Part shown: positions 44,403-50,949 of the stretch, one piece after another
Numbering within the stretch: position 1 is the first letter of the stretch
How the letters are laid out: each line of letters begins with the position of its first letter
NCBI GenBank assembly: GCA_030684395.1
Contig: JAUXTT010000004.1
Span: 310,001-374,000, forward strand
Length of the DNA stretch: 64,000 nt
From: Bacteroidota bacterium
GTDB lineage: Bacteria > Bacteroidota > Bacteroidia > B-17B0 > Aurantibacillaceae
Direction: 5' to 3'
Program-made: the position numbers and the translations under genes
Notes under the pieces: generated by a model
Databases searched by the model: none
Told to the model about the DNA's origin: nothing
What the model saw: the letters and a program-made list of their open reading frames with translations, nothing else

Positions 44403-44783
44403 ATGGAACACAGCGAAAAAATCAAAGAATGTTATAAAGCAGCTTCAAACTATCCTGATCTTGCAAAACGATTAAATCAAATTGGAGTAGAATCATATAC
44501 TGTAGATACAGCAAGCGGCACAGTACTTTATAGATTTAAAGAAGGAAAAAACACTTTGCATCCGGGAAACATTGCTGCAAGAGTAATTAACGAAAACTTC
44601 AACGAACAAAAAACAATTGAAGCGGTTAGAAACAATCAGCAAGGGAGAACAGATTATCTGGGCTTCATGAATGAAATTGCAGAAGCAGGCGTTAGATTTT
44701 ACGAGGCAACACTATGCGGCGATAACAAAAGAGTAAGTTATATTGGGAAAGGTGGTTTTTATGAAGAGGCAATTCCGTGGTAA
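44403..44783 (+). CDS. DUF1398 family protein
   Basis: A 126-residue soluble protein. The pattern YPDLAKRLNQIGVESYTVDTASG, RTDYLGFMNEIAEAGVRFYEAT and GDNKRVSYIGKGGFYEEAIPW is that of DUF1398, a small family whose members occur as YbcV-like proteins in enterobacteria and in many Bacteroidota. No activity is known. There is no signal peptide. Confidence 0.88.
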   Translation: MEHSEKIKECYKAASNYPDLAKRLNQIGVESYTVDTASGTVLYRFKEGKNTLHPGNIAARVINENFNEQKTIEAVRNNQQGRTDYLGFMNEIAEAGVRFYEATLCGDNKRVSYIGKGGFYEEAIPW

Positions 44784-44794
44784 AAAAAATCTTT

Positions 44795-44879
44795 AACCAT
44801 ATAAGGGCGTAGAAGAAATCAATAACTCAACCTTAAATGACCTTATATGCCTTATATGCCTTATATGCCTTATATGGTT
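44795..44879. repeat. AACCATATAAGG palindromic repeat, copy 1
   Basis: Ends AACCATATAAGG and CCTTATATGGTT are perfect complements. The right side contains four tandem CCTTATATG nonamers (44841-44876). Copies at 45606-45673 and 50848-50949 share the ends. Confidence 0.75.
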
Positions 44880-44886
44880 CAGTAAA

Positions 44887-44986
44887 CTAAACCGGATCCA
44901 CATCAATTTTAATTCAAGTCTTTTTGATATCGTGCTTTTGAAATTGCTGAATAGGCGCTAGGATGTATTTCCGGAATTTAACCACA
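44887..44986 (-). pseudogene. Remnant of a second priA 3' end
   Basis: Read on the minus strand, this gives RKYILAPIQQFQKHDIKKT, a TGA, then IKIDVDPV and a stop. Intact PriA ends REHIRMAIQQFQKHDINKKIRIKIDVDPV. Changing the TGA to CGA restores KKTRIKIDVDPV. The match begins at about 44986 and runs through the stop codon to the palindromic repeat beyond, in the same order as at the intact gene. It is not expressed as a gene by itself. Confidence 0.85.
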
Positions 44987-45010
44987 GTAAATTCACTCTA
45001 ACTAACCAAC

Positions 45011-45436
45011 TCATTTTGAAAACCCCTTAACAACAACCCGAATAGGTTTTGCAATGAGAACATCAAGAAGATGGGTAAGTTTTTCCCAATACTTGTTCCC
45101 TTTTATGATATAATCTTTTGCTCCTGCTCTGAACAAATCAATTGCTATCGCAATATCTTCATTACTTGATAACATAATCACTTCTGTTTTAGGGTTGGTC
45201 TCTTTAATTTTTTTCAAAATATCTAAACCATTTTTACCCTCTAAATAATAATCAAGTATAATAATCTGGGTTTCATTACTGATCTCTTTTAAACAAGATT
45301 CACCATCGTCAAAGGTTGATATAACTAAAGCTGGTCCAAACCTGTTTTGCAGATACGTCTTCAAACTGCTAACAAGTAGCTTGTTATCGTCAACAATAAA
45401 TAGTTTTGTTACTTGCGTATCCATTTGCGCCTCCAT
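45011..45436 (-). CDS. Orphan CheY-like receiver protein
   Basis: A 141-residue single receiver domain. The acidic pair is FIVDDN (D15, D16 if counted from the first Met; an ATG 12 bases later is an equal start choice), the phospho-acceptor aspartate is in IIILDYYLEGKNG, and the conserved serine and lysine are in IMLSSNED and YIIKGN. No output domain or neighbouring kinase is present, so it must work through protein contacts. It lies between two copies of a priA 3' end plus repeat, and therefore may have been acquired. Confidence 0.92.
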   Translation of the reverse strand: MEAQMDTQVTKLFIVDDNKLLVSSLKTYLQNRFGPALVISTFDDGESCLKEISNETQIIILDYYLEGKNGLDILKKIKETNPKTEVIMLSSNEDIAIAIDLFRAGAKDYIIKGNKYWEKLTHLLDVLIAKPIRVVVKGFSK

Positions 45437-45605
45437 TTTATATAATAGTATAAATCCTACTACAAAGGACGGGAAATATAAGTACTAAGGTCTTACATAA
45501 GTAAATCTAAATCATACATATTTCACGCTTTTTCAATTAGAAGCGTTGGTTGGAGCGGAAATTATTAAGTAAATTGAATAATATATAAAATGAATTTATT
45601 TTTAA

Positions 45606-45673
45606 AACCATATAAGGGCATAGAAGAAAAACCGCTCGCCAACCTTATGTGATCTTATATGCCTTATATGGTT
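45606..45673. repeat. AACCATATAAGG palindromic repeat, copy 2
   Basis: The same perfect 12-base ends as copy 1; both copies also share GGGCrTAGAAGAAA after the left end. It lies seven bases after the priA stop codon and may act as its transcript-end hairpin. Confidence 0.75.
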
Positions 45674-45680
45674 AAATATA

Positions 45681-48203
45681 TTAAACCGGGTCCACATCGA
45701 TTTTAATCCTGATCTTTTTATTGATGTCGTGTTTTTGAAATTGCTGAATCGCCATTCTGATATGCTCCCGAATTTTTGCAGCTGAAAATTCTCGCTCGTA
45801 TTTAAGCATGATGTTTTTGTAGAATTCGTTTTTGATCCTCGCTACCAAAGGAAACTCAGGGCCCAATACACGCTCGTGAAAATGTTTTTTTAATTCATCT
45901 GTTAACTGTGCGGCTCCTTCGTTTAATAAGAACAGATCTTTACATATCAAAGTGAACTCAATGATCCTGAAAAAAGGCGGATAATTAAATTGTTGTCGGT
46001 CGTGCATTTGAGCTTCGTAAAAAGCATTATAATCACCTTGTTTTACCAATTGCAATATGGCATGATTGGGTTGTGAAGTTTGAATAACTACTTTCCCTTT
46101 TACATCTTTCCTGCCTGCACGCCCGCTTACCTGAGTAATTAATTGATATGCTTTTTCATGTGTTCTGAAATCGGGATAGTTCAAAGCCTGATCAGCGCTG
46201 ATAACTCCCACCAGGCTCACATTATCAAAATCGAGTCCTTTGGTTACCATTTGCGTACCAATCAAAATATCGATGTTTCCGTGCTCAAAATCATCTATCA
46301 ATTGTTTGTATGCATACTTACTTCGAGTAGAGTCCAGATCCATACGAGCAGTTTTTGCTTCCGGGAATAAGAGTTCAATTTCTTCCTCTATCTTTTCAGT
46401 TCCAAAACCTTTGTAACGTAAATCGGAATTTCCACATGCACCACAAGATGAAGGCGGAGAAACAGATGATCCGCAATAATGACAAACCAAACGATTAGAA
46501 GCTTTGTGATAGATCAATGCCACATCGCACTGAGTACAATGCGGAACCCAATTGCAGGTATAACATTCTGTATATGGAGCAAAACCTCTTCTATTCTGAA
46601 ACAATATCACCTGCTCCTTTCTGTCTAATGCTAATTTAATTTCATCCTTTAAACGTAGAGTGAATAATGAATTCTTATTGTCCTCCGTTCTGTCAGCTTT
46701 AGAATCTACTGTCTCAATTTCAGGAACAGTGGCTTCACCAAATCGTTGACTCAATGTAACCAAACCAAATTTATGTTCGTGTGCATTGTAATAAGTTTCT
46801 AATGCAGGTGTTGCTGAACCCAATACTACTTTTGCTTTGTGAAGATGTGCCAGGTAAATGGATGAGTCACGTGCATTGTAACGTGGTGCGTTATCATGTT
46901 GTTTATAAGATGAATCGTGTTCTTCATCCACAATGATCAAACCTAAATTAGTGAAGGGAAGAAACAAGGCTGAACGTGCTCCCAACACCACATCGTAATT
47001 TACATGTCGGTTCAGTGATTCGGATACAGTTTCGTTTCCGGCAACACTATTCCATATTTCTACACGCTCGTTCTCCGAAAACTTAGAGTGGTATACTCCT
47101 ACTCTGTCTCCAAAAAAATTACGAACTCTATAAATTAACTGTGTGGTAAGCGCTATCTCGGGCACTAGAAAAAGAACCTGTTTGCCTTCTTCCAGGGTTT
47201 TCTCTATTAACTTACAATAGATTTCTGTTTTACCACTTCCGGTAATACCGTGTAACAGAACCACATTCTTTGTTTCGAAATGCTGTTTTATTTCAGCAAG
47301 AGATTTTTCCTGTACATCACTTAAGGAAATAGTTTTACGCGCTTCCTGATCTATCTTCAAACGTGAAATCTCAAAATCCTGCGATTCGAATGCTTCTTTT
47401 TTTATGAGACCATTTATTCCACCTACATCAAAAATTTTAGAAAACTCACTCTTCTTCACCCATCTGTCAATAGGCAGTGTTTTTTTCAAACCGCTGATGT
47501 TGCCCATTTTATTGAGGTAGTATAATAAGACCTCAACCTGCTTATGAGCTTTCCTTTCGAGGGCATTAAAAAATTCTTCAAATAATTTTTCGTCATTAAT
47601 GTATTTTTCATTCAGCCTCACATACGGAACCAATTTAGGTTTGTAACGTTCGCTGATTTCTTCGAAATTGATCACCAATTTTTTCTGACGTAAAGATCTA
47701 ACAATGGGCTGAGGGTTTTTCACCTTCAACAAATCAGCTATCTCACTAACCAACATGGTTTCTCTTGCCTGCAAAGCTTCGATCACCATGCTTTCTTTAT
47801 CGGTAAGCACAGAAAGATCAAGCGAAGAAAAATCATATTCTCCGTTCAATACTATTTTTGTTTCGCTGTTCAGTTTTAATCCTGCCGGTAATGCAGCATT
47901 CATTACTTCACCAATATGGCACATGTAATAACCAGCCATCCATTCCCAAAAAGTGAATTGAGTTTCGTTTACAACGGGTGCTTCATCTACAATAGATTCA
48001 ATGTAACGTGCTTCGTATTGTGATGGCGCATTGGAATGTATATTTCTGACTAAAGCTGTATATAATTTACTTTTACCAAACTGAACAACAACACGAGAAC
48101 CAACACGTACTGCATTGGTCATTTCTACAGGAACACGATAAGTGAACAAATTAGGAACTGCCAAAGGCACCACCACATCTATAAAAAGAGTTGGATGTTC
48201 CAT
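45681..48203 (-). CDS. priA: Primosomal replication restart helicase PriA
   Basis: An 840-residue DNA helicase that reloads the replisome at stalled forks. The N-terminal 3'-DNA-binding domain (VVPLAVPNLFTYRVP) is followed by the helicase lobes with Walker A HGITGSGKTEIY and Walker B IIVDEEHDSSYKQHD. The zinc-binding insert has four CxxC-type pairs (CYTCNWVPHCTQC ... CHYC ... CGACG). GTQMVTKGLDF and ITQVSGRAGR are helicase motifs V and VI, and the end IDVDPV is typical. It overlaps the glycosyltransferase gene upstream by one base. Confidence 0.97.
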   Translation of the reverse strand: MEHPTLFIDVVVPLAVPNLFTYRVPVEMTNAVRVGSRVVVQFGKSKLYTALVRNIHSNAPSQYEARYIESIVDEAPVVNETQFTFWEWMAGYYMCHIGEVMNAALPAGLKLNSETKIVLNGEYDFSSLDLSVLTDKESMVIEALQARETMLVSEIADLLKVKNPQPIVRSLRQKKLVINFEEISERYKPKLVPYVRLNEKYINDEKLFEEFFNALERKAHKQVEVLLYYLNKMGNISGLKKTLPIDRWVKKSEFSKIFDVGGINGLIKKEAFESQDFEISRLKIDQEARKTISLSDVQEKSLAEIKQHFETKNVVLLHGITGSGKTEIYCKLIEKTLEEGKQVLFLVPEIALTTQLIYRVRNFFGDRVGVYHSKFSENERVEIWNSVAGNETVSESLNRHVNYDVVLGARSALFLPFTNLGLIIVDEEHDSSYKQHDNAPRYNARDSSIYLAHLHKAKVVLGSATPALETYYNAHEHKFGLVTLSQRFGEATVPEIETVDSKADRTEDNKNSLFTLRLKDEIKLALDRKEQVILFQNRRGFAPYTECYTCNWVPHCTQCDVALIYHKASNRLVCHYCGSSVSPPSSCGACGNSDLRYKGFGTEKIEEEIELLFPEAKTARMDLDSTRSKYAYKQLIDDFEHGNIDILIGTQMVTKGLDFDNVSLVGVISADQALNYPDFRTHEKAYQLITQVSGRAGRKDVKGKVVIQTSQPNHAILQLVKQGDYNAFYEAQMHDRQQFNYPPFFRIIEFTLICKDLFLLNEGAAQLTDELKKHFHERVLGPEFPLVARIKNEFYKNIMLKYEREFSAAKIREHIRMAIQQFQKHDINKKIRIKIDVDPV

Positions 48204-50847: not shown

Positions 50848-50949
50848 AACCATATAAGGTCTATAAGTTCATGTAAGGTTTTCGAAAAAAAGGGGTTTGT
50901 TCACACATTTAAGTTTTATCTTCTATGTCCTTAAATGCCTTATATGGTT
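50848..50949. repeat. AACCATATAAGG palindromic repeat, copy 3
   Basis: The same 12-base ends as at 44795 and 45606, with a longer and different centre (about 78 bases). It lies between two convergent genes and could serve as a two-way terminator. Confidence 0.7.

Follow-up and report, generated by a model that had tools for sequence, protein, structure and literature searches.

The question raised by this locus is how a gene for a response regulator receiver came to lie between two copies of the end of priA. The window, by which we mean the whole 64,000-nucleotide stretch of DNA that was analyzed, corresponds to positions 310001–374000 of contig C26 in a Bacteroidota genome (G000; 4.87 Mb, 44 contigs). 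Along the minus strand, the parts follow in the order glycosyltransferase gene, priA, hairpin element, receiver gene, decayed priA end, hairpin element, and convergent DUF1398 gene. The DNA-repair gene priA (45681–48203, minus strand) is intact and encodes 840 aa with the Pfam domains PriA_3primeBD, PriA_C, Zn_ribbon_PriA, and DEAD, and the DUF1398 gene (44403–44783, plus strand; PF07166, 2.6e-11) meets the second element copy, which now separates it from the receiver gene.

The last ∼38 codons of priA (∼110 bases) and the adjoining hairpin element are present twice, once intact at 45606 to ∼45800 and once in decayed form at 44795 to ∼45003, and the receiver gene lies between these copies of a ∼200-bp block. 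Alignment and tblastn thus placed both copies where a preliminary description of this DNA had put a priA end and its repeat, occurring twice in the same order around the receiver. Gapped alignment of 45600–45900 with 44780–45011 scored 205.5, whereas none of 1000 mononucleotide shuffles scored above 93, and contained ungapped matching segments of 24 nt (96%; 44795/45606), 66 nt (85%; 44860/45654), and 79 nt (71%; 44921/45718). A tblastn search of the genome with PriA recovered the remnant independently, with 67% aa identity over PriA residues 805–840 in one run and 63% over residues 802–840, with one TGA and one TAG, in another. Homology ends at the outer end of the element on one side and at ∼45003 on the other, ∼10 bp from the receiver stop codon (45011–45013). 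A direct repeat of resident sequence, the mark of additive integration, flanks the newcomer on either side. Of 305 ORFs with a length of 100 aa or more on this one 397-kb contig, only priA (1/305) is partly repeated in non-genic DNA no more than 5 kb away.

Both copies come from the same lineage. The remnant (44890–45003, minus strand) has lost one codon, carries an in-frame stop, and differs from the resident priA end by a K2P distance of ∼0.28. It shares 84 identities with the resident end (25 mismatches, 5 gaps), compared with 72 (35 mismatches, 7 gaps) and 78 (25 mismatches, 12 gaps) for priA of the same-genus species G001 and G002, respectively. The motif QQFQKHDI is common to the remnant and resident PriA, where G001 has QDFNRNEL and G002 has HQFRTHDL. 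Because the remnant is nearer to resident priA than to that of either same-genus species, we assign both copies to the window's own lineage. The difference between remnant and resident PriA at KYILAP/EHIRMA, previously pointed out as a sign of divergence, is real, but it lies in a remnant that contains stops, and the adjoining IQQFQKHDI...KIDVDPV hardly differs from the resident sequence. The differences between remnant and resident priA are best read as decay.

The element supplies a second line of evidence for this origin. Copy 1 (45606–45673) adjoins intact priA, has inverted arms AACCATATAAGG/CCTTATATGGTT with a predicted fold of −22.4 kcal/mol, and carries a variant, GGGCATAGAAGAAA, found otherwise only in copy 2; copy 2 (44795–44879) lies beyond the remnant and contains extra 9-bp CCTTATATG units. 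Of the 43 exact ends of the element found genome-wide, the variant AACCATATAAGGGC(A/G)TAGAAGAAA is confined to the two priA-linked ends; both read AACCATATAAGG-GC(A/G)TAGAAGAAA, and all others continue otherwise. This common and unique variant indicates that one element was copied from the other, in a duplication that took in the gene end as well.

The element itself is not peculiar to priA, since its 43 exact ends are spread over ∼30 places in the genome, nearly all of them intergenic. It also occurs in G001, G003, G008, G020, and G037. As a dispersed hairpin repeat of the form AACCATATAAGGCAT...CTTATATGCCTTATATGGTT with 9-bp units, it has further copies at 50848–50949 of the window and on contigs C2, C4, C16, C29, C31, C43, and others of the same genome. 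The copies in the window matched no Rfam family. A role as a plain terminator was considered and set aside, as the gaps that hold the element (10 convergent, 7 divergent, 13 co-directional) show no clear preference. The element was likewise rejected as the carrier of the receiver, since no clustered element repeats occur near the receivers of relatives. At the other element copies, no gene-end duplication like that of priA was found. On contig C31, a small gene (GxxExxY-like by eye) lies between two element copies, the first without its second arm (L097 1552–2127; G000:C31:486152–486726), and no gene-end duplication was seen there. The hairpin element is often flanked by another dispersed repeat of intergenic DNA, with the form AACACAGAGGnCACAGAG...CTCTGTGT (L082, L087, L090, L092, L093, L101).

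The gene between the copies (45011–45436, minus strand) encodes 141 aa, of which residues 13–114 match Response_reg (Pfam, 1.4e-20); no other domain was matched, and the product is a receiver without an output domain, that is, a single-domain response regulator. Its phosphorylation residues (DD, the D in ILDYYLEG, the S in MLSSNED, and the K in DYIIKG) align with those of close relatives. An alternative ATG at 45424, which would give 137 aa, is preceded by GGAGG and matches the start in relatives, and it is likely the actual start. Most relatives of the receiver are 162–176 aa long and have a C-terminal membrane helix. The window receiver ends before the position of this helix, where it adjoins the priA remnant, and its best 19-residue hydropathy is 1.11, compared with 1.99–2.97 for the long forms. 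It falls in one clade with the tail-less receivers from G085 and G077 (support 98/94), in both of which a tail-less copy directly precedes a tailed one; the resident paralog at C22:33186 belongs to a different, tailed clade. We therefore rejected the idea of a receiver cut short by the insertion, because the native 137–138-aa forms of G085 and G077, in the same clade, end alike (VKGFFR versus VKGFSK before the stop). Members of the tail-anchored, CheY-like receiver family and its tail-less clade were also noted at L194 (9255–10275), L195 (8982–9957), L040–L047, and L076 (5184–5675). A literature search under the phrase “membrane-bound response regulator” found no paper.

Upstream of the gene, a putative regulatory region (45437–45530, minus strand) aligns with DNA in front of receivers from other genera and would have arrived with the receiver. 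Anchored at the start, the 105 bp before the gene aligned with z scores of 5.0–5.9 against shuffles for three of these receivers; with strict scoring over the whole 166-bp upstream stretch, the alignment was not above shuffles. A conserved motif, roughly GTGTGAAnTATGCAA...TGTGTAAtGCTTTA, precedes several receiver genes (L194, L195, L196, L197, L154; window 45437–45530) and is possibly a shared regulator site. By these sequence comparisons, the receiver gene is complete and has a predicted promoter of its own. Many of the relatives' receivers lie near other receivers and large hybrid kinase-like proteins, so read from their size and context, and thus in signaling clusters. The presence of its kin in such clusters elsewhere, the tail-less clade, and the conserved upstream DNA together suggest that a whole expression unit moved. 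No source copy of high identity was found, the best match being 64–66% at the amino acid level. An origin from a phage or plasmid is unsupported, as there were no relatives of the receiver in viral contigs and none on plasmids at an identity of at least 60%. The computed probability that an ORF under no selection stays without stops at 0.2–0.27 substitutions per site is 0.06–0.035; selection having kept the receiver ORF open is thereby suggested only, and we infer that the receiver still functions.

Comparison with relatives did not turn up the arrangement in another genome. As the preliminary description had anticipated, the region downstream of priA in ∼60 relatives shows only one priA end and lacks a receiver: at 74 priA loci, some of which extend only a few hundred bases beyond priA, and including those of G001 and G002, no second priA end, receiver, or DUF1398 was found near priA. 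G001 (PriA 78% identical) and G002 (72%) have one priA end each, followed by unrelated DNA, and synteny with G001 is kept for the genes before priA and lost behind it. The strict empty site, priA-element-DUF1398 without the receiver, was not found among the ∼60 relatives, and in none does DUF1398 adjoin priA, because synteny with these genomes already stops at the priA stop codon. Only distant counterparts of the downstream genes occur, DUF1398 and DUF4349 in G001 and DUF4349 alone in G002.

On balance, we consider it probable, although by no means certain, that the receiver cassette was inserted additively with a flanking duplication of ∼200 bp after the lineage had parted from the two same-genus species sampled. 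The insertion scar proposed earlier is borne out to this extent by the receiver lying between two priA ends, by the single-ended, receiver-free loci of relatives, and by the kin of the receiver in signaling clusters elsewhere. In an ancestor that had already separated from both of these species, ∼0.6 kb of DNA with the tail-less receiver and its promoter would have been added behind priA. One event would have left ∼200 bp of resident sequence, the last ∼38 priA codons and the element, at either side; priA would have kept an intact end, and the far copy, having no function, would have decayed. The order gene end, element, newcomer, gene end, element is that expected from a single crossover by a small circle with a homologous end, and the same product would follow if a fragment were captured at a break and the staggered ends were filled in. 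We infer that the insertion was one event by either of these routes, perhaps the crossover of a small circle. Counting against this are the failure to find the exact empty site or a high-identity source copy among the genomes compared, the need, for a single crossover, of a circle that already joined a priA end to the receiver, and the state of the junctions, which are too decayed for microhomology to be read.

The main rival to additive insertion, unlikely overall but with a real claim to attention, is that the receiver first lay between the element and DUF1398, and that the unit of priA end, element, and receiver was later duplicated in tandem, with subsequent deletion of the second receiver. 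Tandem duplication of this kind is common in bacteria and results in the same order of parts; however, three events are needed, the deletion must end a few bases from the outer end of the element, and no trace of a second receiver is present in 44783–44795. Integrating elements that rebuild the 3′ end of a gene are well known, e14 at icd being an example, and the earlier account had offered joining of this type as one origin of the scar. That a site-specific element took the 3′ end of priA for its attachment site, rebuilt it, and then eroded to one cargo gene is nevertheless very unlikely: Phage_integrase matches occur on other contigs but none on C26, no viral or close plasmid relative of the receiver was found, as noted above, and the duplication extends through the hairpin element to its far end.

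The other origin offered earlier, a diverged donor whose DNA carried in both the receiver and a priA end of its own, would explain the several residues at which remnant and resident end disagree. Against it, the remnant lies closer to resident priA than to priA of G001 or G002, and its element carries the unique variant. Since decay accounts for the differences in a sequence that is nearest to resident priA and contains stops, we regard the foreign priA end as highly improbable. We give least credence to an assembly error joining two pieces in a draft contig. G001 is a metagenome bin and the genome studied here may be one too, but misassembly of a single genome would not yield a second copy decayed by stops, an indel, and a K2P distance of ∼0.28, and the site is ∼42 kb inside the nearer end of the 397-kb contig.

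A separate matter is whether the hairpin element set the edges of the insertion. The duplication edge (44795/45606) coincides with the outer end of the element, and the synteny break relative to G001 falls at the same gene end. It is a long shot that the element is a site prone to breakage or recombination; if it is, breaks at the base of the element would set the edges of insertions.

Read as an additive insertion, the locus would be a readable fossil of how a regulatory gene and its promoter can be added without harm to a neighbor, the priA end remaining whole while its duplicate falls into decay. The locus also draws attention to a receiver family with a membrane tail, of which little has been described, and to its tail-less clade.

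Several features of the locus recall known systems. As in elements of the e14/icd type, the gene 3′ end is intact on one side of the acquired DNA and a remnant lies on the other; unlike them, the priA locus has no integrase or island, its duplicated block includes an intergenic repeat, and its two copies share one lineage. In its dispersed, short, inverted, and intergenic character (∼30 places), the hairpin element resembles REP- and MITE-like palindromes such as the GTAG/CGTC-tagged REPs (PMC3733652), but it ends in AACC/GGTT and has a 9-bp internal period. Neither a GTAG nor a CGTC tag was seen by eye in the copies inspected or in their consensus, and no Y1 transposase gene lies beside the listed copies, the nearest Y1_Tnp being ∼9 kb away (C11). 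The receiver, with its acidic pocket, phospho-acceptor D, S/T, and K, resembles single-domain CheY-like response regulators, and it is tail-less, whereas its nearest family mostly has a C-terminal membrane helix. The closest parallel to the duplication is Campbell-type integration at the lacZ end in E. coli (PMC3240628), where a copy of the homologous gene end likewise lies on each side of the newcomer. Among recombinants selected to show homology-facilitated illegitimate recombination, 56 of 60 that were Lac− had a duplication of the homologous end, explained by a single crossover with a circular molecule from which part of that end was missing (PMC3240628). Events of this kind are thus already known, and they are ordinary. 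The duplications measured 109–950 bp in the 14 recombinants sequenced, compared with ∼200 bp at priA, and in both systems one copy is cut off at a non-homologous joint (PMC3240628). The priA locus differs from the lacZ case in being known only as an old scar, without a donor molecule, and in that its insert is a 0.6-kb gene with a promoter.
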